Assembly: GCF_006717095.1 (NCBI RefSeq)
Contig: NZ_VFQE01000001.1
Location: 3,782,001 to 3,846,000, forward strand
Direction of reading: 5' to 3'
Length of the DNA stretch: 64,000 nucleotides
Source: Blastococcus colisei
GTDB lineage: Bacteria; Actinomycetota; Actinomycetes; Mycobacteriales; Geodermatophilaceae
The stretch's first letter is position 1, and every line of letters begins with the position of its first letter. The notes beneath the pieces are model-generated. The model was not told where the DNA came from. It ran no database searches and worked only from the letters and a program-made list of their open reading frames with translations. This document shows, piece after piece, positions 41,972-59,437 of this stretch. Made by a program: the position numbers and the translations under genes.

Positions 41972-43583
41972 TCGAGCCTGTCGCGCGAACGGTGGCGGAT
42001 GAGCCGCCGCGGTGCATCGCTGGGTGATGTTGCGCTGTGAGTCGGGGGGCGGGCGCCGGTTGATGGTGGTCGGGAGCGGGGATAGTGGCCCGGTCAGCGC
42101 TGTCGGCGGTGCCGGCCGCCCCCGGATCAGGCGGTGGCCAGCCGGTGGGCGTGGATCTTGCGCAGGTTGTGCACGGTGCAGGCCAGCGACCACTCGGTCT
42201 TGGCGTTCTGCAGGCCGCGGCGGAGGAGCTGGCGTAGTCCCTGCCGGTCTTTGATCTGGCCGAAGACCGGTTCGACCGTGCGTCCTCGGAGGGCGTATTT
42301 CTCCGTGCCTTCGGGGGTGCGCAGCCTGTCCTGGGCGCGGGCGGTGGCCGGGCGGGAGGTCAGCGGTTTGTCCCCGGCGGGGTCCTCGCCGGCGGCGCGG
42401 CGTTCGTCGCTGATCATCGGGGCCAGCAGGCGCAGGCCGCGGGTCTCGGCCTCGGTGAAGGTCTCCTCGTTGGCGTAGCCGGCGTCGGCGACCCAGGTGT
42501 CGGGCGTCTCCTCGATGCCGGCCTGGTTCAGCTGCTCGGCGGCGTCATCGAGGACGGGAAACAGCTGATGGGCGTCGGTGGCCGCCTGGGTCAGCGTCTG
42601 GCCGACGATGAGCTGGTCTTCGGTGACCGCGGCCTGGGCGTTGTAGCCCTGCACCAGCCCCCGCCCGCCCCGCATCGTCCGCGAGTCCGGATCGGTGGCG
42701 TTGGCCCGCGGCGGCTTGTCCTTGTCCGGATTGCGGCCCGGTGGATGCTCGCCCGGTTGGGCGCCGCGGCGGGTGCCGGCGTCCTTGCGGCGCTGCCACT
42801 CGGCCTTCCTCACCTCCTGCTCGGCCACGGCCGCGGCCTGCTCGTCGTCCAGGCGCTGCTTGGCCTCCTTCAGTCGAGCCAACCGCTCGGCCCGCCGGCG
42901 CAGCGGCGGTGGCAGCTCATCCCCGCGGTCGTCGCCGTGTTCGGCGTCCTCGGCCGCGTCGATGCGCGTCTGTTCGTCGAGCAGCTCGGCGGCCAGCTGG
43001 TCGTAGCGGGCCTGCTCCTCGGCGACCTGGTGGGCCAGCGACGCCGAGGTGTGGTTCTTCGACCAGGAGGCGTTCGCGGCGATCTTCGTCCCGTCCACCG
43101 CGATCACGCCCAGCCGCACCATCCCGGCCTCGTGACACACCCGCAGCACCTGCGCGAACAGCTCCTGCAGCGGCTGGCGGTGACGCGTGACGAACCGGGC
43201 GATCGTGGCGTGATCGGGCACCCGATTGCCGGCCAGCACCCGGAACGCCACATCGCGGACACAGTGCCGCTCGATCGCCCGCGACGAGCGCACCCCGACC
43301 GCGTGCGCGTACAGCAGCACCGCCACCATCAGCGCCGGGTCGAACGCCGCCGCGCCCTGCCCGTTGGCCCGATACGAGCGCTTGAACCCCGACAGGTCGA
43401 ACGAGTCCACCGCATCCTTGACCGTCCAGGCCAGCTCCCCGTCGGGCAGCCAATCCCGCACATCCGGCGGCAGCAGGAACCCCTGATCGACATCCCCGCG
43501 GATGAAGTTCTGCGGCATACCCCAGTCTCCCGCCGCCCAGGATGATCATCAATCAGGCGCGCTTTGTGCGACAGGCTCGATCA
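41969..43583. mobile_element. IS1182-family insertion sequence
   Basis: Bounded by inverted repeats TGATCGAGCCTGTCGC (41969-41984 on the plus strand; the complement at 43568-43583), extended inward by RCRAA. It holds one transposase gene on the minus strand. No clear direct target duplication is visible in the flanks (AACC on the left, TCAG on the right). The total length of 1615 bases suits a complete element. Confidence 0.85.
42127..43518 (-). CDS. IS1182-family transposase
   Basis: A 463-residue DDE transposase. The N-terminal DUF772 region has FDPALMVAVLLYAHAVGVRS and VPDHATIARFVTRHRQPLQE; the catalytic part has VIAVDGTKIAANAS (first Asp), DTWVADAGYANEE (second Asp) and the C-terminal ALRGRTVEPVFGQIKDRQGL (Glu). 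A charged coiled-coil insert (YDQLAAELLDEQTRIDAAED...) lies between. Full length with motifs intact, so the element is probably active. ATG 43518 follows the right terminal repeat. Confidence 0.93.
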   Translation of the reverse strand: MPQNFIRGDVDQGFLLPPDVRDWLPDGELAWTVKDAVDSFDLSGFKRSYRANGQGAAAFDPALMVAVLLYAHAVGVRSSRAIERHCVRDVAFRVLAGNRVPDHATIARFVTRHRQPLQELFAQVLRVCHEAGMVRLGVIAVDGTKIAANASWSKNHTSASLAHQVAEEQARYDQLAAELLDEQTRIDAAEDAEHGDDRGDELPPPLRRRAERLARLKEAKQRLDDEQAAAVAEQEVRKAEWQRRKDAGTRRGAQPGEHPPGRNPDKDKPPRANATDPDSRTMRGGRGLVQGYNAQAAVTEDQLIVGQTLTQAATDAHQLFPVLDDAAEQLNQAGIEETPDTWVADAGYANEETFTEAETRGLRLLAPMISDERRAAGEDPAGDKPLTSRPATARAQDRLRTPEGTEKYALRGRTVEPVFGQIKDRQGLRQLLRRGLQNAKTEWSLACTVHNLRKIHAHRLATA

Positions 43584-49059: not shown

Positions 49060-50028
49060 CTACGGCCCCGAGGTGGCTGCCGTCCTCTCCGAGAGGACGG
49101 CTTCGAGCGCGGACTCCTCGACGTAGGCCGACTGTGCGCCCAGCCGGGTGACTGCCGCACTCGCGAAGGCAGCGGCGACGCGCGCGGCGTCGGAAAGGCT
49201 GTCGCCTCTGCTCAGCCGGGCAGCGAGCGCACCTACGAAACCGTCCCCGGCCCCGGTCGTGTCGACAGCCCGCACGCGGGGCGCCGGGATGTGCTCCACA
49301 CCCGCCGCGGACGCGACCAGGGCGCCTTCGGGCCCGAGTGTCACGACGGCCGACCGAGCGCCGAGTGCGGTCAGCGCCGCCGCGGTGGCCTTGATGCCTT
49401 CCAGATTTGCGCCGAGGTCGACGCCGGCATGCGCAACGATGACTCCGGCCTCGTCCTCGTTGACGACGAGCGGATCGCACAGCGCGAGCACCTCGGGGGC
49501 CACTGCCGCAGCCGGTGCAGCATTGAGGACGAATCGCGCTCCCACCTGCGCTGCGCGGCGAGCAGCTCGCGTGACGGTCTCCATCGGAATCTCGAGCTGG
49601 GCGACCACGACGTCGTCGCCGGTCCACCTGGCTGCGCTGCGGTCCACGGCGTCCGCGTCGAGGGAGGAGTTCGCGCCCGGTGTCACGATGATCGAGTTCT
49701 CGCCGTCAGGAGTGATGACGATGACCGCATGGCCGGTCGGGGCGTCGACGACCGCGACTCCCGCCAGATCGACCCCTGCCTCATGCATGGATGACTGCAG
49801 CAGCCGGGCGTGCCCGTCGCGACCGACGCAGCCGACGAACGTTGCCCGTCCGCCCATGCGGGCCGCCGCGACTGCCTGGTTCGCACCCTTGCCACCCGGT
49901 GTCGTCGTGGACGTACCGGCCAGCACCGTCTCACCCGGTGCCGGTCGATGATGGACCTGCAGCACCAGATCGGCGTTGGCTGAACCGACGACGACCACGC
50001 GCCCTGTCTCCGCCTCGGTCCTGCTCAT
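49060..50028 (-). CDS. Ribokinase-like PfkB sugar kinase
   Basis: A 322-residue PfkB kinase of the ribokinase subgroup. GSANADLVLQVHHRPAPGET and TTPGGKGANQAVAAARMGG form the sugar site, TPGANSSLDADAV lies in the middle, and the anion hole and base are VDTTGAGDGFVGALAARLS. ATG 50028 has GAGAGGAG upstream. It lies next to the M20 peptidase and the LacI-controlled operon, so it may phosphorylate ribose or another pentose liberated by that system. Confidence 0.88.
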   Translation of the reverse strand: MSRTEAETGRVVVVGSANADLVLQVHHRPAPGETVLAGTSTTTPGGKGANQAVAAARMGGRATFVGCVGRDGHARLLQSSMHEAGVDLAGVAVVDAPTGHAVIVITPDGENSIIVTPGANSSLDADAVDRSAARWTGDDVVVAQLEIPMETVTRAARRAAQVGARFVLNAAPAAAVAPEVLALCDPLVVNEDEAGVIVAHAGVDLGANLEGIKATAAALTALGARSAVVTLGPEGALVASAAGVEHIPAPRVRAVDTTGAGDGFVGALAARLSRGDSLSDAARVAAAFASAAVTRLGAQSAYVEESALEAVLSERTAATSGP

Positions 50029-50165
50029 CGGGCTCCTCTCACAGCGACCCTGCCACCTCCGTGGCCCCACCTACTGACGCCATCAGCCTCGCAGGGCCGC
50101 CAGGCATCCCGGCTGGTGGTAGGCGAGTGTGGACGCCGGCAGTGAGATCTGTGCAGGATCGGACC

Positions 50166-51260
50166 ATGGACCCTGCTGCCGCGGAGCTGGACGCGTCGGT
50201 TCTGGTGCGCGAGCTGGTCCGCCGCCCGACGGTGTCGGGGAACGCCACCGCCCAGCGCGACTGCATGGGGCTGGTCACCGAGGTGCTGCGTGAGCGGGCC
50301 CCGCATCTCGACGTCCGCGTCGGTCGCGACCCCGACCAGCCGTGGACCCTGCTCCGGACGCCGACCGACCCCGCTCGCGCGCAGCTGCTGTTCGCCTGCC
50401 ATGTCGACACCGTCCCGGTGCCCGACCCCGGCGTCTGGCAGCGCGACCCGTTCGGTGCCGACGTCGAGGACGGCCGGGTGTGGGGCCGCGGCAGCAGCGA
50501 CATGAAGTCGGGCTTGGTCGCGGCGGCTGCCGCGTTCGCCGCGACGGACCCGCAGACCCCGATCGCCCTCCTGCTGACCAGTGATGAGGAGGTCGGCTCG
50601 AAGGGCGCGATTGCCGCGGCAGCGGCCGTGGCCGAGCAGTCGGTCGGTGCGGTCGTCGTCCCCGAGGCCACCGGCAACCAGGTCGTGCTCGGCCACAAGG
50701 GCGCCCTGTGGCTCGCCGTCCGGACCGCCGGGCGGGCTGCCCACGGCAGCACCCCGGAGCGTGGTCACAACGCCGTCCTCGACCTTGTCGCCGTCCTCGC
50801 CCGGGCGCGGAGCGCCTTGCCGCTGGCCCGCGACCCCTTCCTGGGAGTTGAGACGTGGAACTGCGGGATCGTGGCCGGAGGCACGGTGCCCAACGTCGTG
50901 CCCCACCGGGCGGAGGCGGTCATCGACATGCGCACCGTCGCAGACGGCGCCGAGCTGCTGGCCTGGTGGCGCGCCCAACCCGAGGTCGCCGACGTGGAGG
51001 TGCGAGTCGACCTGCCCCCGGTGGGCACCACGGCCGACGATCCGTGGGTTGCCGCCCTGCCCGCGCCGGTGCTGCGGACGCCGGCCACGTACTTCACCGA
51101 CGCCTCGGTGCTCGGGCAGGTGGTCAATGGCGCGCCGATCGTCGTGTGGGGTCCGGGAACGCCCGCGGTCATGCACGCCGTCGACGAGTACGCGGAGCTG
51201 GCCGAGTTGGAGGAGGCGGCCACCCTGCTCACCGAGGTCGCCGCCCGCTGGTCCCGCTGA
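50166..51260 (+). CDS. M20-family metallopeptidase (DapE/ArgE-like)
   Basis: A 364-residue di-zinc amidohydrolase. Metal ligands and catalytic residues: LLFACHVDTVP (His, Asp), RGSSDMKSGLVAAA (Asp), LLTSDEEVGSKG (catalytic Glu and ligand Glu), and the final His in GTPAVMHAVDEYAEL. The lid domain has GHKGALWLAVRTAGRAAHGS. It resembles succinyl-diaminopimelate desuccinylase, but it stands alone next to sugar genes and may act on another N-acyl amino acid. Its 3' end overlaps the convergent LacI gene by 32 bases. Confidence 0.85.
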   Translation: MDPAAAELDASVLVRELVRRPTVSGNATAQRDCMGLVTEVLRERAPHLDVRVGRDPDQPWTLLRTPTDPARAQLLFACHVDTVPVPDPGVWQRDPFGADVEDGRVWGRGSSDMKSGLVAAAAAFAATDPQTPIALLLTSDEEVGSKGAIAAAAAVAEQSVGAVVVPEATGNQVVLGHKGALWLAVRTAGRAAHGSTPERGHNAVLDLVAVLARARSALPLARDPFLGVETWNCGIVAGGTVPNVVPHRAEAVIDMRTVADGAELLAWWRAQPEVADVEVRVDLPPVGTTADDPWVAALPAPVLRTPATYFTDASVLGQVVNGAPIVVWGPGTPAVMHAVDEYAELAELEEAATLLTEVAARWSR

Positions 51261-52293
51261 CCGGAGCGCCCGGGTGTGCCTGTCTCGGCGCCGGACCAGT
51301 GCTCGCGCGGACCACCAGGCTGGGACTCAGGGAGATGCGCGCCGGCTCGACGACAGAGGGTTCCAGGGCGCGTTGCAGCAGCCGGACCGCCTCCGTGGCG
51401 ATGAGTTCCTGGGGTTGGCGCACCGTCGTCAACGGCGGAGCCGACAGCGCGGAGAACGGGATGTCGTCGAAGCCGGTGACGAGGACATCGCCGGGGACCT
51501 CGACCCCCGCCTCGGAGCAGGCCTGCACGACCCCGAGGGCGATGAGGTCGTCGGCGCAGACGATCGCGTCAGGCAGTCGCCGCGACCGGAGCAGCCGCGC
51601 GGTCCCTTCCCTGCCCCAGTCGATCGAGTACTCCCCCAGGAGCACGTGCTCGTCGTCGACCGCGATGCCGAGCCGTTCGGTGTGCCGGCGGAAACCCGCT
51701 AGTCGCAGTTCGGTGGAGGAGTTGGTCAGGCGCGAGCTGACGAAGGCCGCCGACCGGGCACCACGCGCGGCCAGGTGGTCCATGACGAGGACCATGCCGG
51801 CCTCGTCGTCCACCCCGACCCAGTCGCTGGGCACCCCCGAGACGTAACGGTCCACCTGCACGAGCGGCAGCTCCGCGGCGGCCCACGCCACCGCCTCGGT
51901 GCTCTCCGTGCCGTGGACCGGACTGATGACGATCCCGTCGACCTGCCGGGCGACCAGGCTGCGCAGTCGCTGCGCCTCGAGTGCCGGGTCCGAGCGGGAC
52001 GAGCAGAGGAAGAGCTGGCGCCCGGCCTGCTGCAGCGCGTACTCGACGTTCTCGACCAGCGACGTGAAGAACGGGTTGGCGACGCTCGGCACGACCATGC
52101 CGACCGTGTCGGTGCGGCTACGGCGCAGGGCGCTGGCGATGCCGTTGCCCGAATAGCCCAGGTCCTGAACCGCCCGGTGCACCTGATCAGCCACCTCAGG
52201 GGAAACGGGGCGGGCCCCCGACAGCGCCCGCGAGACGGTGGCCGTCGAGACCCCGGCCCGGGCGGCTACGTCCCGGATGGTCACTCTCGGCAC
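51229..52293 (-). CDS. LacI-family regulator of the divergent operon
   Basis: A 354-residue LacI protein. The helix-turn-helix is TIRDVAARAGVSTATVSRAL with hinge helix NGIASALRRSRT, and the sugar-binding domain has VGMVVPSVANPFFTSLVENV, DGIVISPVHGTES and PDAIVCADDLIALGVVQACS. GTG 52293 starts the conserved PRVTIRDV. The divergent operon begins at 52405, and two LacI-type sites lie between. It probably represses that operon until a sugar-like inducer appears. Confidence 0.92.
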   Translation of the reverse strand: MPRVTIRDVAARAGVSTATVSRALSGARPVSPEVADQVHRAVQDLGYSGNGIASALRRSRTDTVGMVVPSVANPFFTSLVENVEYALQQAGRQLFLCSSRSDPALEAQRLRSLVARQVDGIVISPVHGTESTEAVAWAAAELPLVQVDRYVSGVPSDWVGVDDEAGMVLVMDHLAARGARSAAFVSSRLTNSSTELRLAGFRRHTERLGIAVDDEHVLLGEYSIDWGREGTARLLRSRRLPDAIVCADDLIALGVVQACSEAGVEVPGDVLVTGFDDIPFSALSAPPLTTVRQPQELIATEAVRLLQRALEPSVVEPARISLSPSLVVRASTGPAPRQAHPGAPVSGTSGRRPR

Positions 52294-52321
52294 GGCTCTC
52301 CTCCTCGCGTCGCAACCGGAA

Positions 52322-52335
52322 TGTAATCGATTGCT
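52322..52335. promoter_or_regulatory. LacI-type operator, left site (imperfect)
   Basis: TGTAATCGATTGCT matches the left 11 bases of the perfect palindrome 56 bases downstream and lies immediately upstream of the -35 element. Confidence 0.6.
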
Positions 52336-52336
52336 C

Positions 52337-52367
52337 TTGACATGGGCAGCGCGCCGCCCGCTACGGT
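52337..52367 (+). promoter_or_regulatory. Putative promoter of the catabolic operon
   Basis: TTGACA (52337-52342) and TACGGT (52362-52367) with 19-base spacing, lying between the two LacI-type sites. The -35 is ideal, the -10 fits TANNNT. Confidence 0.55.
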
Positions 52368-52377
52368 TCTCGGCACT

Positions 52378-52391
52378 TGTAATCGATTACA
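52378..52391. promoter_or_regulatory. LacI-type operator, right site (perfect palindrome)
   Basis: TGTAATCGATTACA is a perfect 14-base palindrome with a central CG, as in LacI-family operators. It lies just after the putative -10, where bound repressor would block initiation. Confidence 0.8.
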
Positions 52392-52404
52392 TGAGGTGCG
52401 CCAC

Positions 52405-53241
52405 GTGGCTGCGTTCGGTGTCTTCCCGCCCAAACCGTCGGCGGTCAGGGCCCTCTTCGGGGAGGGCGAAGCGCTGATCGGGGCGGTCCATCTCCCCCCG
52501 CTGCCGGGAAGCCCGGCCTACCGCGGCCAGCCGGTGGCGGACATCTGCCGCTTCGCCGTCGAAGAGGCACGGGCCTACGTCGGCAACGGCTTCGACTCCG
52601 TGATCGTGGAGAACCACGGCGACCTGCCGTTCCTGAAGCCCGGCCAGCACGGCTACGAGGTCGCCGCCACCATGGGCGTGGTCACCGCGGCGGTGGTCGC
52701 CGAGCTCGGCCCGCACGTCGGGGTCAGCGTGCTGTCGAACGCCGGCGAGTGCGCGGTAGCCGCCGCCTGGGCCTCCGGCGCTGGATGGATCCGGGTCAAC
52801 CAATGGGCCAATGCCTATGTCGCCAACGAGGGCATCATCGAGGGCCAGGCCGCCCGCACCACCCGGTACCGGCACGGCATCGGGGCCGACCCGGTCAGGG
52901 TCTTCGCCGACGTGCACGTCAAGCACGGGGCGCACGCGATCGTCGCTGACCGCACGCTGGCCGAACAGACCGAGGACGCCGAGTTCTTCGACGCCGACGT
53001 CCTCATCGCCACTGGTTCCCGCACCGGTCACCCGACGTCGGTCTCCGAGGTGGTCGGGATCCGCGACCACACACAGCTTCCGGTCGTCATCGGCAGCGGC
53101 ATCGACCCGAGCAACGTCCGCGTGCTGCTCGACGAGTGCGACGGCGCCATCGTCGCCTCCGCCGCCAAGGAGAACGGTCGGTGGTGGGGGCGGGTGTCCC
53201 CGGACAAGGTCCGTGCCGTCGCCCGTGCCGCCGGTCGATGA
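52405..53241 (+). CDS. BtpA/SgcQ-family TIM-barrel protein
   Basis: A 278-residue member of the BtpA family (PF03437): EALIGAVHLPPLPGSPAYRG at the start, GFDSVIVENHGDLPFLKPGQ, WIRVNQWANAYVANEGIIEG, FADVHVKHGAHA, and ATGSRTGHPTSVSEV with LPVVIGSGIDPSNV, typical of a phosphate-binding TIM barrel. BtpA was first named for photosystem I assembly in cyanobacteria, but bacterial relatives such as SgcQ lie in sugar operons and probably act on phosphorylated sugars. First gene of the operon; GTG 52405 with GAGG at 52393-52396. The stop overlaps the kinase start. Confidence 0.87.
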   Translation: MAAFGVFPPKPSAVRALFGEGEALIGAVHLPPLPGSPAYRGQPVADICRFAVEEARAYVGNGFDSVIVENHGDLPFLKPGQHGYEVAATMGVVTAAVVAELGPHVGVSVLSNAGECAVAAAWASGAGWIRVNQWANAYVANEGIIEGQAARTTRYRHGIGADPVRVFADVHVKHGAHAIVADRTLAEQTEDAEFFDADVLIATGSRTGHPTSVSEVVGIRDHTQLPVVIGSGIDPSNVRVLLDECDGAIVASAAKENGRWWGRVSPDKVRAVARAAGR

Positions 53242-54122
53242 TCGTCTTCTGCGGGTACGCCAACCTCGACGTCGTCGCGCGGGTGCCGACGCTGCCGCGC
53301 CCCGACGAGAGGGTGCACGCTGCCGGGATCACGCACTCGCCCGGCGGCATGGCGGCCAACGCCGCGGTCGCCGCGGCCCGCGCCGGAGCGCGGGTCGCCT
53401 TCGCCGGCGTCGTCGGGAACGACCCGTTGTCCGGCCGCTTCCTCGAGGAACTGCAGGCCGAGAAGGTCGACGTGAGCTGGACCGACCGCTCGGCGTTCCT
53501 CTCCACGGCGATCGTGCTCGTCGACGCCGAGGGCCGCCGAGCGGTCGTGAGCCAGGACGACGCCCTCGGTCCCGCGCACGTGCTCTCCTCCGCCGCGCGC
53601 CTCGCCGCTGCCGGGGGTGGCCTGTTCTACCTCGACGGCTACCGCGCGGCGCAGATCGGCGCGGCGTCCGGGCCGGGCGTCGTCGTCGCGGTCGACCTGG
53701 ACGGCTGCGACGACCGCGGCCTCGCCCTCGCAGGGTTGCGAGCCGCCGGGCACGTCATCGTCGGGCGGCGTCGGCTGGAGGAGCTCCTCGGCGTTCCACG
53801 CGCGGAGTGGGCGCGGCTGGCCCGCGAATCGGCCGCCTGCCTGCTGGTCACCGACGGCCCCCGCGGCTGGACGCTGCACGAGCCCGATGGCTCCGTGCTG
53901 ACCGGCGAGGCGCTCACCGTCCCGGTGGTCGACGACACCGGCGCCGGCGACTGCTTCGTCGGCACGTACCTGGCCGGCATCGACGCAGGTCTGTCCCCGG
54001 CGGAGGCGGCGAGCCGGGCCGGTGTGGCCGCCAGCCTGTCCTGCACGGTGCCCGGGGCGCGCGGCGCTCCCCGGCGGTCCGACGTCGACGCCGCTCTCCC
54101 CCCGCTGCCGGCCACGTCCTGA
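53238..54122 (+). CDS. PfkB-family carbohydrate kinase
   Basis: A 294-residue PfkB kinase: FCGYANLDVVARVPTLPRPD, GGMAANAAVAAARAGARVAF and the catalytic VVDDTGAGDCFVGTYLAGID. The substrate loop differs from ribokinase (HSPGGMAANAA against TTPGGKGANQA), so another sugar or nucleoside is likely. ATG overlaps the BtpA stop by four bases, linking the two enzymes tightly. It probably phosphorylates the imported compound before the BtpA-like protein acts on it. Confidence 0.88.
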   Translation: MIVFCGYANLDVVARVPTLPRPDERVHAAGITHSPGGMAANAAVAAARAGARVAFAGVVGNDPLSGRFLEELQAEKVDVSWTDRSAFLSTAIVLVDAEGRRAVVSQDDALGPAHVLSSAARLAAAGGGLFYLDGYRAAQIGAASGPGVVVAVDLDGCDDRGLALAGLRAAGHVIVGRRRLEELLGVPRAEWARLARESAACLLVTDGPRGWTLHEPDGSVLTGEALTVPVVDDTGAGDCFVGTYLAGIDAGLSPAEAASRAGVAASLSCTVPGARGAPRRSDVDAALPPLPATS

Positions 54123-54177
54123 GCAGCCCCGCGATCGCACCACGGCACTCCCACCGCACCCCACCTTGGAGGACGCA

Positions 54178-55191
54178 ATGAGACGCACTCTCGCCCTTGC
54201 CGCCGGCGCCAGCCTGTTGGTGCTGAGCGCCTGTGACAGCAGCTCCCCGGCCGAATCGGGTTCGGCATCGGACGACGGCAGCAGCAACGCCAGCTCGCTG
54301 CCCGAGCCCAGCATGCAGCCCGAGGGTTGCGAGACCACCGACGAGCTGGAGATCGGCCTGGTGACGATCAACCTCCAGGCGCTGTTCTTCAACCAGATCA
54401 ACGAGGCCGCCCAGGCGATGGCCGACGAGTACGGCGTCGACCTGCAGATCATCAGTGGCGAGAACGACTCGGTGACCCAGGCCAACGCGATCAACACCCT
54501 CGTCGCCGACGGCGTCGACGCGATCATCGTGGCCGCCATCGACACCGAGGGCATCAAGCCCGCCATCCGCGCGGCCGACGAAGCGGGTGTGCCGGTCGTC
54601 GCGGTCGATGCGATCGTCGAGGACCCGGCGGTCGACACCCAGGTCGGGACGGCGAACGCCGAGGGCGGCGCGCAGATCGGCGAGCTGTTGCTGGAGGAGT
54701 CCGGCGGCGAGGGCGAGGTCGGCATCGTCGGGGCGCTCAACAGCACGATCCAGCTCGAGCGCCAGCGCGGGTTCGAGGAGGCGGTCACCGAGGGTGGCAT
54801 GACCATCGGCACCGTGGTCGACGGCCGCAACATCCAGGAGAACGCGCAGACGGCGGCCGAGAACCTGCTCACCGGCAACCCCGATCTGCAGTACCTGTAC
54901 GCGACCGGGGAGCCGGCACTCATCGGGCTGGCCGCGGCCGTGCGGAGCCAGGCGGCGCAGGACCGCGTCACCGTCGTCGGGTGGGACCTCGCCGAGCCCG
55001 TGGTCGACGGCCTGGAGGAGGGCTGGATCGCCGGTGTCGTGCAGCAGAACACCTTCGAGTTCGGCTACCAGGCGATGGCGGCGGCGATCGACCTGGCCTG
55101 CGGCAATCCGGTGCAGGAGGAGTACCCGGTGGACACGCAGATCGTCACGCCGGAGAACTACGAGGACTACCTCTACTACCTGGAGGGCTGA
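54178..55191 (+). CDS. Sugar ABC transporter substrate-binding lipoprotein
   Basis: A 337-residue periplasmic-binding-protein type 1 of the ribose/RbsB group. A lipoprotein signal ends LVLSACDSSS with the lipid Cys. The two lobes carry EIGLVTINLQALFFNQINEA, DAIIVAAIDTEGIKPAIRAA, GEVGIVGALNSTIQLERQRG and DRVTVVGWDLAEPVVDGLEE. TTGGAGGACGCA precedes ATG 54178. It collects the substrate for the ABC transporter made by the next two genes. The ligand is probably a sugar or polyol. Confidence 0.92.
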   Translation: MRRTLALAAGASLLVLSACDSSSPAESGSASDDGSSNASSLPEPSMQPEGCETTDELEIGLVTINLQALFFNQINEAAQAMADEYGVDLQIISGENDSVTQANAINTLVADGVDAIIVAAIDTEGIKPAIRAADEAGVPVVAVDAIVEDPAVDTQVGTANAEGGAQIGELLLEESGGEGEVGIVGALNSTIQLERQRGFEEAVTEGGMTIGTVVDGRNIQENAQTAAENLLTGNPDLQYLYATGEPALIGLAAAVRSQAAQDRVTVVGWDLAEPVVDGLEEGWIAGVVQQNTFEFGYQAMAAAIDLACGNPVQEEYPVDTQIVTPENYEDYLYYLEG

Positions 55192-55194
55192 GGC

Positions 55195-55953
55195 ATGACT
55201 GACGAGACCGGGGACCTCCTCGTCGAGCTCAGGGGGATCACCAAGTCCTACGGACCGGTGCAGTCGCTCCGGGGCGTCGACCTGACCCTGCGGCGCGGGG
55301 AGGTCCTCGGCCTCGTCGGCGACAACGGCGCCGGGAAGTCCACGCTGATGAAGGTCCTGGCCGGCGCCGTGCAGCACGACGGCGGAGAGATCCGGGTACA
55401 CGGCCGCCCGGTGAGCTTCGCCAGCCCGGCGGACGCACAGGGCGAGAAGATCGGCATCGTCTACCAGGACCTCGCGCTGTGCGACACGCTCGACGTGGCC
55501 AGCAACCTGTTCCTGGGCCGGGAGCCGCACCGCGGGCCGTTCGTGGACAAGCGGAAGATGCACGAGCAGGCGGCCCAGATCCTCGCCGACCTGCACGTGA
55601 AGGTCTCCTCCACCCACCAGGAGATCGGCACCCTCTCCGGGGGGCAGCGGCAGACCGTCGCCATCGCCCGGGCGGTCTCCTTCGCCCCGGACGTCCTCAT
55701 CCTCGACGAGCCGACCGCCGCGCTGGCCGTCGCCGAGGTGGAGTCGGTGCTGCGGCTGATCACCGACGTCGCATCCCGCGGGGTCGGCGTCATCCTCATC
55801 ACCCACCGGTTGCAGGACCTGTTCCGCGTCTGCGACCGGATCACCGTCATGTATGAGGGCGAGAGCGTGGACGACGTCCCGATCGGCGAGCTCGACATCG
55901 AGAAGCTCGTCGCCCTCATCACCCGTAGCGAGCCGCAGCAGGGAGTGGCCTGA
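55195..55953 (+). CDS. Sugar ABC transporter ATP-binding protein
   Basis: A 252-residue single-domain ATPase: GDNGAGKSTLMKVLAGA (Walker A), GTLSGGQRQTVAIARAVSFA (signature), VLILDEPTAALAV (Walker B), ILITHRLQD. Unlike RbsA, which has two ATPase halves of about 250 residues each, this is one half and must dimerise, as in a subset of ribose/xylose-type systems. The gene starts three bases after the lipoprotein stop and its end touches the permease ATG. Confidence 0.93.
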   Translation: MTDETGDLLVELRGITKSYGPVQSLRGVDLTLRRGEVLGLVGDNGAGKSTLMKVLAGAVQHDGGEIRVHGRPVSFASPADAQGEKIGIVYQDLALCDTLDVASNLFLGREPHRGPFVDKRKMHEQAAQILADLHVKVSSTHQEIGTLSGGQRQTVAIARAVSFAPDVLILDEPTAALAVAEVESVLRLITDVASRGVGVILITHRLQDLFRVCDRITVMYEGESVDDVPIGELDIEKLVALITRSEPQQGVA

Positions 55954-56984
55954 TGACCGCGACCACCCTTCCCGGAGAGGCCGACACCGCCAGCCGCCGA
56001 TTGGCCCGACCGCAGTCGTGGTGGCAACGGGCGAACAAGGCCACGCTGATCATGGCCGTGGTGACGCTGGCCGTCTGCGCGTTCTTCGCGCTGTCGTCGG
56101 ACACCTTCCTGACCTTCGCCAACATCTCCAACCTGGCCACCCAGGTCGCCCCGGTGCTCATCGTCGCCGTGGCCATGACCTTCGTGATCACGGCCGGCCA
56201 GATCGACCTGTCGGTCGGCTCGATCATCGCCTTCGTCTCGGCGGTCTGCGCGCAGCTCCTGGTCGCCGGCTGGGACTCCTCGCTGGTCCTCATCGCCGGA
56301 CTGCTCATGGGCGCCGGCTGGGGGCTGGTCAACGGCTGGTTCACCGCCTACGCCGGCATCCCGGCGTTCATCGTCACGCTGGCCACCCTCTCGGTGATCC
56401 GCGGCATCGCGCTCCTCACCACGCAGGGCTTCTCCGTGCCGATCGATTCCAGCACCTTCTTCGCGCAGCTCGGCAGCGCCCGGTGGCTGGGCTTCTCCAG
56501 CAGTGCCTGGATCGCCGTGCTGATCGTCGCGCTGGGCCTGGTGACGCTGCATCGGCTCCGGTTCGGGCAGTACGTCGTCGGCATCGGAGCTGCCGAGGAG
56601 TCCGTCCGCCGGGCCGGGGTCAACGTCCGCCGGGTGAAGATGTGGACTCTCATGCTCAGTGGCCTGGCCGCTGGTATCGCGGGCATCCTGGTCGCGGCCC
56701 GGCTGGGCTCCGGCTCGGCGAACTCCGCACAAGGTTTCGAGCTGACCGTGATCGCCGCGGTGGTCCTGGGCGGAACCAGTCTGTTCGGCGGGCGCGGCAC
56801 GGTGGTCGGCACCCTGATCGGCGCCGTGCTGATCACGGTGATCGCCAACGGCCTGACGCTGATCGGCGTGAGTCCCTTCCTGACCCCGATCATCACCGGC
56901 ACGGTCCTGCTGCTCGTCATCTGGGTGAACCTGCGCAGCGTCGGCATCGCCCACGCGCTGCGGAGACTCGGCGTCCGCTCATGA
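55953..56984 (+). CDS. Sugar ABC transporter permease (RbsC-like)
   Basis: A 343-residue permease with about nine to ten segments of the ribose type: TLIMAVVTLAVCAFFALSSD, VAMTFVITAGQIDLSVGSII, AYAGIPAFIVTLATLSVIRG, and VVLGGTSLFGGRGTVVGTLI (the EAA-like loop). The end HALRRLGVRS is cytoplasmic. Coupled to the ATPase and to the hydrolase gene by four-base overlaps. Confidence 0.92.
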   Translation: MTATTLPGEADTASRRLARPQSWWQRANKATLIMAVVTLAVCAFFALSSDTFLTFANISNLATQVAPVLIVAVAMTFVITAGQIDLSVGSIIAFVSAVCAQLLVAGWDSSLVLIAGLLMGAGWGLVNGWFTAYAGIPAFIVTLATLSVIRGIALLTTQGFSVPIDSSTFFAQLGSARWLGFSSSAWIAVLIVALGLVTLHRLRFGQYVVGIGAAEESVRRAGVNVRRVKMWTLMLSGLAAGIAGILVAARLGSGSANSAQGFELTVIAAVVLGGTSLFGGRGTVVGTLIGAVLITVIANGLTLIGVSPFLTPIITGTVLLLVIWVNLRSVGIAHALRRLGVRS

Positions 56985-58033
56985 CGACCGTCCGGACGGT
57001 GCTCGGCGAGGTCGACTCGGCCGACCTCGGGCTGGTCCTGCCGCACGAGCACCTGGCCAACGACAACGCCGCCGCGGTCCGGACGGCGGAGGACCCGCGC
57101 GTCGCCGCACTGCTCGACGGTCCGGTCGGGGCCGAGCTGGCCTGGCTGCTCTCCGACCACCCGTACGAGAGCGCGGACAACTGCCGGCTCGACGACGACG
57201 ACGCCATGGCCGCCGATCTGCGCGGCTTCGCCGCCGCCGGGGGCCGGACGGTGATCGACCTGACCCCGCCGGGCCTGGGCCGGGACCCCGAGCGCCTGGT
57301 ATCCCTCTCCCGCGCCAGCGGGATGCAGGTGGTGATGGGTTCGGGGTGGTACCTGCAGGCCACCCATCCGCCGGACCTGGCGGCCGTCGCGGTGGACGAC
57401 CTCGCCGCCGAGCTGACCGCGGAGTTCGAACCGGACCGCGCCGTCCGACCCGGTGTGATCGGGGAGATCGGCGTGTCCCCGGCCTTCACCCCTGACGAGC
57501 GGAGGGCTCTGCGGGCCGCCTGCCGTGCCCAGCGGCACGTGCGGGTGCCGTTGTTCGTGCACCTGCCCGGCTGGCAGCGGCGGGCGCACGAGGTGCTCGA
57601 CCTCGTCCTCGAGGAGGAAGGTGTGGACCCCGGCGCCGTCGTCCTCTGCCACATGGACCCCTCCGGCGATGACCGGTCGTACCAGCAGGCGGTCGCGGCG
57701 CGCGGAGTGGTGCTGGAGTTCGACATGGTGGGCATGCCCTTCCACTTCCCCGGTGAGGGGCAGTCCCCGTCACCGGCCGAGACGGCCGCCGCCGTCAGTG
57801 CGCTCGTCGACGCCGGCCACGCAGAGCAGGTGCTGCTCTCCCACGACCTCTTCCTCAAGGCGATGCTCACCCGGTTCGGGGGCAACGGCTTGGCTTACGT
57901 GCCGGTGGTGTTCGCCGATCGGCTCCGACGCGCCGGCCTGGACCCGGCCCTGGTGACCTCTCTGATGACCGACAACCCGCGCCGGCTGTTCGAGCGCGCC
58001 CACTCCCCTGCCACACCACACGAAGGACACTGA
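56981..58033 (+). CDS. Phosphotriesterase-like metal hydrolase (possible lactonase)
   Basis: A 350-residue amidohydrolase-superfamily protein of the phosphotriesterase homology group. Metal ligands: LVLPHEHLAND (H-x-H), VPLFVHLPGWQ (His), VLCHMDPSGDD (His) and LLSHDLFLKAML (Asp). In place of the carbamylated Lys is Glu in VIGEIGVSPAF, as in the PHP subgroup. Related enzymes hydrolyse sugar phosphate lactones. The gene ending in the operon after the transporter suggests a step in breakdown of the imported substrate. Confidence 0.85.
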   Translation: MTTVRTVLGEVDSADLGLVLPHEHLANDNAAAVRTAEDPRVAALLDGPVGAELAWLLSDHPYESADNCRLDDDDAMAADLRGFAAAGGRTVIDLTPPGLGRDPERLVSLSRASGMQVVMGSGWYLQATHPPDLAAVAVDDLAAELTAEFEPDRAVRPGVIGEIGVSPAFTPDERRALRAACRAQRHVRVPLFVHLPGWQRRAHEVLDLVLEEEGVDPGAVVLCHMDPSGDDRSYQQAVAARGVVLEFDMVGMPFHFPGEGQSPSPAETAAAVSALVDAGHAEQVLLSHDLFLKAMLTRFGGNGLAYVPVVFADRLRRAGLDPALVTSLMTDNPRRLFERAHSPATPHEGH

Positions 58034-58040
58034 CCGCACC

Positions 58041-58790
58041 ATGGCCCGAATCCTCATCGCCGGCGAGAGCTGGATGACCACCTCCACCCACGTCAAGGGC
58101 GTCGACGAGTTCTCGGTGCACTCCTACGTCGAGGGCGTCGGGCCGCTGCGGGAAGCGCTGACCGCCCGCGGCCACGAGGTGATCCACCTGCCCGCCCACC
58201 TGGTGCCGACCGACTTCCCCGGCGACGCGGAGGCGCTGTCGGCCTACGACCTCGTGGTGCTCTCCGACATCGGCGCAAACTCCATCCAGCTGGCCCCCGG
58301 CGTCTTCGAAGGCTCCCGTCCGGGCCAGGACCGGCTGGCTGTCCTGCGGGACTGGGTCGCCGACGGTGGAGCCCTGCTCATGATCGGCGGTTATCTGTCC
58401 TTCAGCGGCTTCCAGGCCCGTGCCGCCTTCCGCCAGACGGCGATCGCCGAGGTCCTGCCGGTCACCATGCTGCCCGAGGACGACCGGGTCGAATGCCCGG
58501 CCGGCGTCCACCCGACCGTGGTCGACGCCGACCATCCCGCACTCGGGGACGCCGGAGATGAGTGGCCGCTGCTGCTCGGCTACAACCGCGTGGTGGCCCG
58601 CGAGGGCGCCCACGTCCCGGTGCGCGTGGGAGACGACCCGCTGATCGCCCTGGGCGAGCACGGCCGCGGCCGTGCGGCCGCGTTCACGTCCGACTGCTCG
58701 CCGCACTGGGCCCCGCCGGCGTTCTGCGAGGAGTGGCCCGGCTACGCCGGGATGTTCGACGGCCTGGTCCGCTGGCTGGTCCGCGCGTGA
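58041..58790 (+). CDS. Glutamine amidotransferase-like protein (PF07090 type)
   Basis: A 249-residue class I amidotransferase-like fold, often annotated ThuA/PF07090: MARILIAGESWMTTSTHVKG, YDLVVLSDIGANSIQL, WVADGGALLMIGGYLSFSGF, and RGRAAAFTSDCSPHWAPPAF with WPGYAGMFDGLVRWLVRA. The nucleophile position of true glutaminases (GxCxG) reads MIGGYLSFSG, without Cys, so it is not a glutaminase. Family function is unclear; ThuA-like proteins occur in sugar operons. It overlaps the next gene by four bases. Confidence 0.82.
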   Translation: MARILIAGESWMTTSTHVKGVDEFSVHSYVEGVGPLREALTARGHEVIHLPAHLVPTDFPGDAEALSAYDLVVLSDIGANSIQLAPGVFEGSRPGQDRLAVLRDWVADGGALLMIGGYLSFSGFQARAAFRQTAIAEVLPVTMLPEDDRVECPAGVHPTVVDADHPALGDAGDEWPLLLGYNRVVAREGAHVPVRVGDDPLIALGEHGRGRAAAFTSDCSPHWAPPAFCEEWPGYAGMFDGLVRWLVRA

Positions 58791-59437
58791 CCGGCCGGTC
58801 CGCCGCCCTGGTCGCCCGGCAGGCCGCGGCCCTGGACGACGCGTGCGGATGCCGGTTCGTGCGAGAGGCGACCGAGGGGGAGCTGTCGGACGGCGACTTC
58901 GCGCGGTACCTGGTCATCGAAGAAGCCTTCGTCCTCACCGCCGCCCGCGTACTGGGACGCGTTGTCTGGGAGTCGCCGTCGTGGGGGACCCTGCTCCCCC
59001 ACGCCCGGTCGCTGACCAACCTGGTCACCGACCAGCGCGACTACTTCGCCGCCCTGCGCGATCGCTGGCCGGTGGACGCCGTGGACGCCGCTGCCACCCA
59101 GGTACGGGCTCGGTCGCTGTCCGACGTCGTCCTGACCCAGGTGGCTGCCGACGGCCGCCCGGCCGCGGTGACCGGGATGCTGGCCGCCGAGACCATGTAC
59201 GCCCGCTGGTGCACGGCCGCCGCCGGAGCTGCCGCGGACGCCGTGACGCGCCGACACCCGGACCTGCAGGCCTGGATCGACCTGCACACCGGCCCGGACT
59301 TCCTCGCCCAGGTGAACGCCCTCAGCGACGACGTTGACGCTCTCGACCCTGACGAGGTCACCGACGAAGACCTCGATCGCTGGTTCCGCTCGGTACTGCG
59401 CGCGGAGATCGAGTTCCACGACGCCGTCCACGGCTGA
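58787..59437 (+). CDS. TenA-like protein
   Basis: A 216-residue TenA/THI-4 helical protein. LDDACGCRFVREATEGELSD, FARYLVIEEAFVLTAARVLG, MLAAETMYARWCTAAAGAAA and LQAWIDLHTGPDFLAQVNAL fit the fold. True thiaminase II enzymes have a catalytic Cys around residue 135 (in Y-x-x-W-C or YWxxC context); here MYARWC keeps a Cys at a similar place. In this operon a role other than thiamin salvage is likely. Last gene of the operon. Confidence 0.82.
   Translation: MTGRSAALVARQAAALDDACGCRFVREATEGELSDGDFARYLVIEEAFVLTAARVLGRVVWESPSWGTLLPHARSLTNLVTDQRDYFAALRDRWPVDAVDAAATQVRARSLSDVVLTQVAADGRPAAVTGMLAAETMYARWCTAAAGAAADAVTRRHPDLQAWIDLHTGPDFLAQVNALSDDVDALDPDEVTDEDLDRWFRSVLRAEIEFHDAVHG

Follow-up and report, generated by a model that had tools for sequence, protein, structure and literature searches.

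A conserved LacI-controlled operon of Blastococcus colisei as a candidate route for the uptake and breakdown of N-linked ribosides

Within the window, a 64,000-nucleotide stretch of the Blastococcus colisei genome (contig NZ_VFQE01000001.1, positions 3,782,001 to 3,846,000), an operon of eight genes encodes a BtpA/SgcQ-family protein, a PfkB-family kinase, an ATP-binding cassette (ABC) importer of the ribose type, a phosphotriesterase (PTE)-family hydrolase, a PF07090 protein and a TenA-like protein. The operon is real and conserved, and we give roughly an even chance to the reading that it is a LacI-controlled system for the uptake and breakdown of an N-linked riboside. The importer would take up a nucleoside-like riboside, the kinase would phosphorylate it, still intact, at the 5'-hydroxyl, and the BtpA protein, modelled as a phosphate-binding TIM barrel, would then split the bond between phosphoribose and aglycone, so that kinase and BtpA would form a kinase-first counterpart of the nucleoside hydrolase and ribokinase found in sister operons. 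The PTE hydrolase, an M20 deacylase encoded beside lacI and the TenA-like protein would hydrolyse C-N bonds of the amide type in the aglycone or in an N-acyl riboside, and the PF07090 protein would work at the ribosyl-nitrogen step. We hold the riboside part of this reading more firmly than the cleavage by BtpA. It is based on the swap of BtpA for a nucleoside hydrolase, the binding-protein pocket shared by both forms, the loss of a ribose ligand (Glu143) in the kinase, the fold matches of BtpA, the neighbours of PF07090 and a group of pyridine-type clusters. Our direct observations concern the gene content and its conservation, the operator-like palindromes, the swap, the residue patterns of kinase and binding protein and the fold predicted for BtpA; the chemical steps, the sequence in which they occur and the nature of the aglycone are inferred.

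An earlier note on this DNA had described the LacI-divergent eight-gene operon, and a Pfam profile scan confirmed all of its genes in place, with scores above the Pfam cut-offs. On the forward strand, the operon consists of the genes for BtpA (52405..53241; PF03437, 202.7 bits), the PfkB-family kinase (53238..54122; PF00294, 116.6 bits), the RbsB-like substrate-binding lipoprotein (54178..55191; Peripla_BP_4, 172.7 bits), the importer ATPase (55195..55953; ABC_tran, 118.2 bits), the permease (55953..56984; BPD_transp_2, 137.1 bits), the PTE-family metal hydrolase (56981..58033; PF02126, 151.6 bits), the PF07090 protein (58041..58790; GATase1_like, 298.7 bits) and the TenA-like protein (58787..59437). 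The lacI gene, for a LacI-family repressor, lies on the reverse strand (51229..52293; LacI helix-turn-helix and Peripla_BP_3). The 4-base overlaps that had been said to prevail occur at only three of the seven junctions (-4, 55, 3, -1, -4, 7 and -4 bases in gene order). The inventory also overlooked the M20 (ArgE/DapE-type) deacylase gene beside lacI (50166..51260, forward strand, with a predicted start codon; Peptidase_M20, 93.8 bits), which is convergent with lacI, shares a 32-base overlap of the 3' ends with it and belongs to the operon's gene set. In the 5.16-Mb host genome (four contigs), we found one match each for BtpA, PF07090, TenA and the nucleoside hydrolase family IUNH (PF01156), the last on another contig (C4) and not in the operon.

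A scan of genome contigs with the window PF07090 protein as the query found 32 loci, the best matches being from Geodermatophilaceae. The core of binding protein, ATPase, permease, PTE and PF07090 is held by 27 of them, and 23 of these 27 retain the complete order LacI-BtpA-PfkB-core, so that the arrangement is not due to chance. Three of the other four end at contig edges and the fourth (L027) is without BtpA and PfkB. The joint conservation that the earlier note had proposed to look for was thus found in other genomes, and its proposal was not refuted there. In the relatives, too, the LacI gene is divergent from the operon; of the 27 core loci, all actinobacterial, 25 hold TenA and 22 have an M20 deacylase gene next to the LacI gene. 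Relatives of the operon occur in Rhodococcus, Rhizobium, Paracoccus and Pantoea, and rearranged versions lie on alpha- and gammaproteobacterial plasmids of Rhizobium, Palleronia, Pantoea, Paracoccus and Agrobacterium vitis. By record annotation, the versions of Palleronia, Rhizobium johnstonii and one Paracoccus carry TenA, the other Paracoccus version an M20 peptidase, that of Pantoea both TenA and M20, and those of Rhizobium SL42 and A. vitis a "Zn-dependent hydrolase". Because the plasmid versions differ in this way, the three hydrolases may be partly interchangeable. We found no description of this gene set in our searches of the PMC open-access literature, where the one paper returned on BtpA together with SgcQ describes a genome. 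In the Frigoribacterium locus L027 (1084-10445), the core, TenA and M20 are kept, no BtpA, PfkB or IUNH is in reach, and a class V aminotransferase gene lies beyond the M20 gene.

The chief clue to the substrate class is the replacement of BtpA by IUNH. Genome draws from the class and the phylum yielded loci with the same core in which an IUNH nucleoside hydrolase (family membership was checked for L046 and L083) follows PF07090 and BtpA is absent. The first census comprised 64 PF07090 loci, 41 of them with the core; BtpA was found in 31 of the latter and IUNH in 7, one (L036) being counted in both groups, and 4 have neither. After the pattern had been noted, a second draw of 394 genomes of the class gave 15 with PF07090, of which 8 were already known and 7 new loci were added. 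All four new core loci fit the swap: L080-L082 have BtpA and TenA and no IUNH, and L084 has IUNH and ribokinase and no BtpA. Combined, 45 of 71 PF07090 loci hold the importer-PTE-PF07090 core (BtpA in 34, IUNH in 8, both in 1, neither in 4, three of the last ending at contig edges). In L036, IUNH is part of a separate upstream importer operon. TenA occurs in 29 of 34 BtpA core loci vs one of eight IUNH core loci (L036), and M20 is present in seven of the eight IUNH core loci and ribokinase in five of the seven other than L036. A single family (f18) contains both forms, L082 with BtpA and L046, L048 and L084 with IUNH. These counts use an IUNH threshold of 250 bits, which leaves L085 (198 bits, motif DTDTASDD) outside, and only the genome-draw counts are unpicked; 20 plasmid loci were hand-picked for spread among the records that matched PF07090 (192) or BtpA (154). 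From the phylum draw we dropped 15 partial PF07090 matches, each lying in a frame of at least 900 aa, and from the class draw G170; L034 gave no usable PF07090 row. In L083 (1-10347), from an actinobacterium, seven IUNH open reading frames, one truncated at the edge of the stretch, surround one PTE and one PF07090 gene together with a gene like those of short-chain dehydrogenases/reductases; six of the seven have the DxDxxxDD motif.

The importer points in the same direction. Binding protein, ATPase and permease are all present, as the earlier note had it for a complete ribose-type importer, with an ATPase of 252 aa and one domain; the matched sugar-importer ATPase models are about 490-510 positions long. 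The curated RbsB and RbsA models scored below their cut-offs (94.5 vs 337 and 215.1 vs 745 bits, respectively). The closest solved chain to the window binding protein is 5hsg (226 bits). At the 13 positions that contact or line the ribose in RbsB, the residues of 41 core binding proteins and of 5hsg are, apart from a few exceptions, A-F-F-x-D-A-N-R-N-G-W-D-Q. RbsB itself has N-F-F-N-D-R-N-R-F-N-F-D-Q, a difference at six of 13 positions. The exceptions are Tyr at position 2 in L008-L011, Gly or Ser at position 6 in L024, L027 and L071, and Thr at position 1 in L027; the four new core loci of the second draw agree with the common pocket. Rows below 110 bits in the main set and below 100 bits in the second draw were excluded. 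Part of the ribose contacts is thus kept and the others are mostly small residues, as would be expected for ribose attached to something. The pocket is near-identical between BtpA and IUNH loci, which suggests that both types import the same kind of substrate. Other binding proteins in PF07090 loci differ: L077 has the exact RbsB pattern, the second binding protein of L075 has that pattern with one Tyr, and those of L040, L050 and L069 have pocket patterns of their own.

The kinase shows a corresponding change. It exceeds the PfkB Pfam cut-off of 25.8 bits, has the catalytic motif DTGAGD (DDTGAGDCF) and lies below the cut-off of the ribokinase model TIGR02152 (110.1 vs 299.65 bits). The ribose ligands of Escherichia coli ribokinase are Asn14, Asp16, Gly42, Lys43, Asn46, Glu143 and Asp255 (PMC9604405). 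Where ribokinase has xQLExP the window kinase has LDGYRA, with Tyr at the position of Glu143. None of the 35 kinases that belong to BtpA clusters (32 from the first set and 3 from the second draw, adjoining BtpA or, in L063, one gene away) has this Glu; 28 have Tyr and 7 Asn. Each of the 18 remaining kinases from PF07090 loci (16 + 2) keeps it. The latter include the second kinases of L024 and L028 and a ribokinase-like gene of the window on the reverse strand beyond the M20 gene (49060..50070; TIGR02152, 285.1 vs 299.65 bits); a similar gene adjoins the M20 gene in L028 too. All 53 kinases keep Asp16, Asn46 and the catalytic Asp255; at the position of Lys43, 28 of them have Met and 25 Lys. 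Kinase rows below 150 bits (first set) or 100 bits (second draw) were excluded.

The window BtpA protein belongs to the BtpA/SgcQ family (TIGR00259, 182.5 vs 153.4 bits; PF03437 cut-off, 30 bits) and falls below the cut-off of NF045918, the equivalog for BtpA of photosystem I biogenesis (153.5 vs 400 bits). The family is known from the sgc operon of E. coli and from BtpA of photosystem I biogenesis, and we know of no enzymatic activity for its proteins, which are widespread: 3835 of 8000 scored candidates matched the family. The window protein is 46-77% identical to 23 of the BtpA rows, one of which (L043) comes from a locus without PF07090, and 24-31% identical to the other 11, all from loci without PF07090 (L052-L062). 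In one such locus (L057, 3508-11406), an M42 aminopeptidase gene lies directly beside BtpA together with Dak1, and L062 looks alike by eye. The predicted BtpA model (pLDDT 89.5) matched phosphate-binding TIM barrels best, including MfnB (solved with phosphoribosyl pyrophosphate, PRPP), HisF and TrpF, which are known for phosphoribosyl ligands; the top rows were tied and singled out no enzyme. Among the best 50 fold matches of either list, there was no nucleoside hydrolase and no fold of the PsuG type, which excludes nothing.

The PTE-family protein bears on what else is hydrolysed. Its binuclear metal ligands, H22, H24, E162, H194, H224 and D289, are invariant in 45 rows, and the best solved relatives are 3k2g, 3rhg (Pmi1525) and, third, 9efa, which is named phosphotriesterase-related protein (PTER). 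The earlier note had assumed that a PTE-like hydrolase opens a lactone. This is not supported by the score against the phospho-furanose lactonase model NF045706 (54.3 vs 630 bits), and the name of 9efa points to amides, since mammalian PTER hydrolyses N-acetyltaurine and N-acetyl-beta-alanine (PMC11374699, PMC13311154). PTER belongs to the same family and has the same six metal ligands as the window protein. A PTER-like substrate was discarded as a candidate because the substrate residues of PTER have no counterparts at the expected positions, so that an amide substrate of the window protein is a guess.

These data also bear on a pathway for free sugars, in which a sugar or sugar acid would be imported and phosphorylated by PfkB, BtpA would isomerise or epimerise the product and the PTE protein would open a sugar lactone. 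Ribose-type importers, LacI regulators and PfkB kinases are usual in sugar operons, ribulose-phosphate epimerases are among the phosphate-binding TIM barrels, and NF045706 describes lactonases among the PTE relatives. We nevertheless regard this pathway as unlikely, given the lactonase score, the nucleoside hydrolases that stand in for BtpA in sister operons, the ribose-binding positions altered in kinase and binding protein alike, and the lack of a clear role for PTE, M20 and TenA-like genes together. Of the series of substrates in the earlier note (imported sugar, sugar acid or nucleoside, followed by PfkB and then BtpA), a nucleoside-like compound is thus the better candidate, and the branch with the sugar lactone is not supported.

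The M20 protein is closest to the DapE-ArgE subfamily, below its cut-off (165.7 vs 217.6 bits). The TenA-like protein matches PF03070 weakly (29.5 bits, cut-off 22); the Cys of thiaminase II is absent. Aligned with the Helicobacter pylori-type chain 2rd3, it has Ala134 at the catalytic Cys, the invariant Glu135 next to it, and a Glu where an Asp aligns. Thiaminase II relies on this catalytic Cys, and the pattern found here fits the Cys-less active site with Glu that we assume for the TenA_E-type amidohydrolase subfamily. Salvage of thiamine or of an aminopyrimidine would account for a TenA family match that is the only one of the genome. We consider it very improbable in view of these substitutions and of the loci where TenA was not found, namely the seven IUNH-type core loci that remain without L036, and also L013, L024, L035, L044, L071 and L075. 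We read the PTE, M20 and TenA-like proteins as putative C-N bond hydrolases.

The PF07090 protein had been called amidotransferase-like, which turned out to reflect the family name only. Class I glutamine amidotransferases carry their nucleophilic Cys in a GxCxG motif; the window protein has GGYLSF at 116-121 instead, and no such Cys is among the invariant residues of 65 PF07090 rows, so a true amidotransferase was rejected. The predicted model (pLDDT 93.4) matched STM3548, STM1381 and 3rht, then ThuA-like proteins and domains of glycosidases and other proteins, from which no function follows. The titles of the solved PF07090 structures STM1381 and STM3548 name no function, and the PMC open-access literature returned nothing under PF07090 or DUF1355 and, by title, only papers on kidney disease for Pmi1525 and STM1381. 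The neighbourhood suggests an enzyme that acts on ribosides or ribosylamines. A PfkB-type kinase, IUNH or BtpA is near PF07090 in 18 of 21 loci of the genome draws, the exceptions being L050, L079, on a contig of 3.9 kb, and L086, close to the end of its contig. Overall, the figure is 53 of 71 loci. At the same bit thresholds, none of 12 BtpA loci without PF07090 has IUNH or ribokinase; L043 has only an 88-bit kinase match.

Ribokinase accompanies PF07090 in L039, L041, L045, L074 and L085, partly as judged by eye, and these loci in part also have NAMPT/nicotinate phosphoribosyltransferase, PRPP synthase, HAD phosphatase, IUNH or flavin oxidoreductase. Three of them (L039, L041 and L074, the last partly by eye) are pyridine-degradation-like clusters with PF07090, nicotinate phosphoribosyltransferase, PRPP synthase and ribokinase. 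This suggests that pyridine-type rings are ribosylated before cleavage and that the ribose is then recovered. Rhodococcus PD04, whose plasmid NZ_CP142144.1 carries PF07090, grows on pyridine, and part of the report on this growth (PMC11256795) names no genes for it. By title, none of the papers that our PMC open-access searches gave on pyridine deals with its ribosylation.

In an alternative route for ribosides, the kinase would not act first. PTE, M20 and PF07090 would free ribose from an N-acyl ribosylamine, PfkB would phosphorylate the ribose or a derivative, and BtpA would come in later, acting on the sugar phosphate or the aglycone. In favour of this, PF07090 occurs with ribokinase, BtpA and IUNH not being found in reach, in L039, L040, L051, L064, L077 and L078, and in L077 it lies beside a binding protein with the full RbsB signature. 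The kinase of the BtpA clusters is without Glu143, however, and in the L024 cluster it stands together with a second, ribokinase-like kinase that has Glu143, for which reasons we assign this route only a low probability.

The kinase-first riboside pathway has a precedent in pseudouridine catabolism, where the PfkB-family kinase PsuK phosphorylates the riboside and a separate enzyme, PsuG, splits the phospho-riboside. A related C-glycosidase is treated in PMC7722734. The proposed system would likewise use a kinase on the riboside and then a separate enzyme splitting the phospho-riboside; the window BtpA, modelled as a TIM barrel, belongs to a family different from that of PsuG, and additional putative C-N hydrolases are present here. 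The Pfam scan found no PsuG-family protein among the nine operon-region and three flanking proteins. By analogy, the system would work like PsuK-PsuG without belonging to that pathway. In the second known scheme, nucleoside hydrolase plus ribokinase, cleavage precedes phosphorylation. IUNH replaces BtpA in seven sister operons that keep importer, PTE, PF07090, LacI and M20, and the window operon is without IUNH. The pyridine-degradation-like plasmid clusters of Rhodococcus and Arthrobacter have PF07090, ribokinase and LacI in common with the window, and L041 also IUNH; they contain phosphoribosyltransferase, PRPP synthase and flavin oxidoreductases, and no BtpA and no ribose-type importer were found in reach. 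As a tentative extension that we hold with less confidence than the pathway itself, the operon-type BtpA proteins may be a novel class of enzymes, nucleotide-type N-glycosidases or phosphorylases that act after a dedicated riboside kinase. Together with PTE, PF07090, M20 and the TenA-like protein, they may make up a so far undescribed route, widespread and passed on horizontally, for ribosides of amide or ureide bases (for example damaged or modified nucleosides), with a ribose recovery shared with pyridine-ribosylating bacteria. The nucleoside hydrolase swap offers the BtpA and PF07090 families a concrete, cheaply testable activity, and the distribution suggests a riboside diet common to soil actinobacteria and rhizobia.

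Several points weigh against this pathway. The phosphate-binding TIM barrel predicted for BtpA fits isomerases, epimerases and aldolases too. With L036 set aside, the seven IUNH-type core loci represent three genera only (g21, g68 and g202), so that independent swaps are few. In L027 neither BtpA nor IUNH is in reach, and L036 has both nearby. The 13 ribose contact and lining positions are those we take to be such in RbsB, and the place of Glu143 was located by what we assume to be the xQLE motif of ribokinase. The alpha- and gammaproteobacterial kinases keep Lys43. In an unrooted tree, the Tyr and Asn groups of kinases form separate clades, which does not prove two separate losses of Glu143, and a single ancient state is possible. 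At the places of the PTER substrate residues R204, R233 and H300, read by offset from the metal ligands and not from a full alignment, the window PTE protein has G197, P227 and F291. TenA and M20 are accounted for only in general terms. Moreover, the models used find neither a kinase nor IUNH nor BtpA in 18 of the 71 PF07090 loci (L006, L012, L013, L027, L030-L033, L038, L050, L065-L070, L079 and L086), at least three of them being incomplete, and the control of 12 BtpA loci is not a random one. PF07090 is also found in allose, Amadori-type and archaeal contexts. On a Ti plasmid (L067, 9001-18756), it occurs with hydantoinase A/B, SIS and fructoselysine 6-kinase in an Amadori-type setting, and on a Chloroflexota plasmid (L069, 1026-11455) within an operon of an allose-type importer and kinase.

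The gap between lacI and btpA contains two operator-like palindromes flanking a promoter-like pair. The first (52322..52335) is a putative imperfect LacI-type operator copy with two mismatches, and the second (52378..52391), TGTAATCGATTACA, is an exact palindrome and likewise a putative operator. The putative promoter on the forward strand (52337..52367) comprises TTGACA (52337-52342) and TACGGT (52362-52367) with a spacing of 19. Among the actinobacterial core loci (L003-L029, 27 in all), 22 have listed copies of this palindrome with at most two mismatches, and of the five loci without a listed copy three end before this region. Because operator and promoter-like sequence occupy 52322-52391, BtpA most likely starts at GTG 52405 rather than at ATG 52342. 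Elsewhere in the window, the start of an open reading frame on the reverse strand (42127-43518) resembles an IS1182-type transposase by eye.

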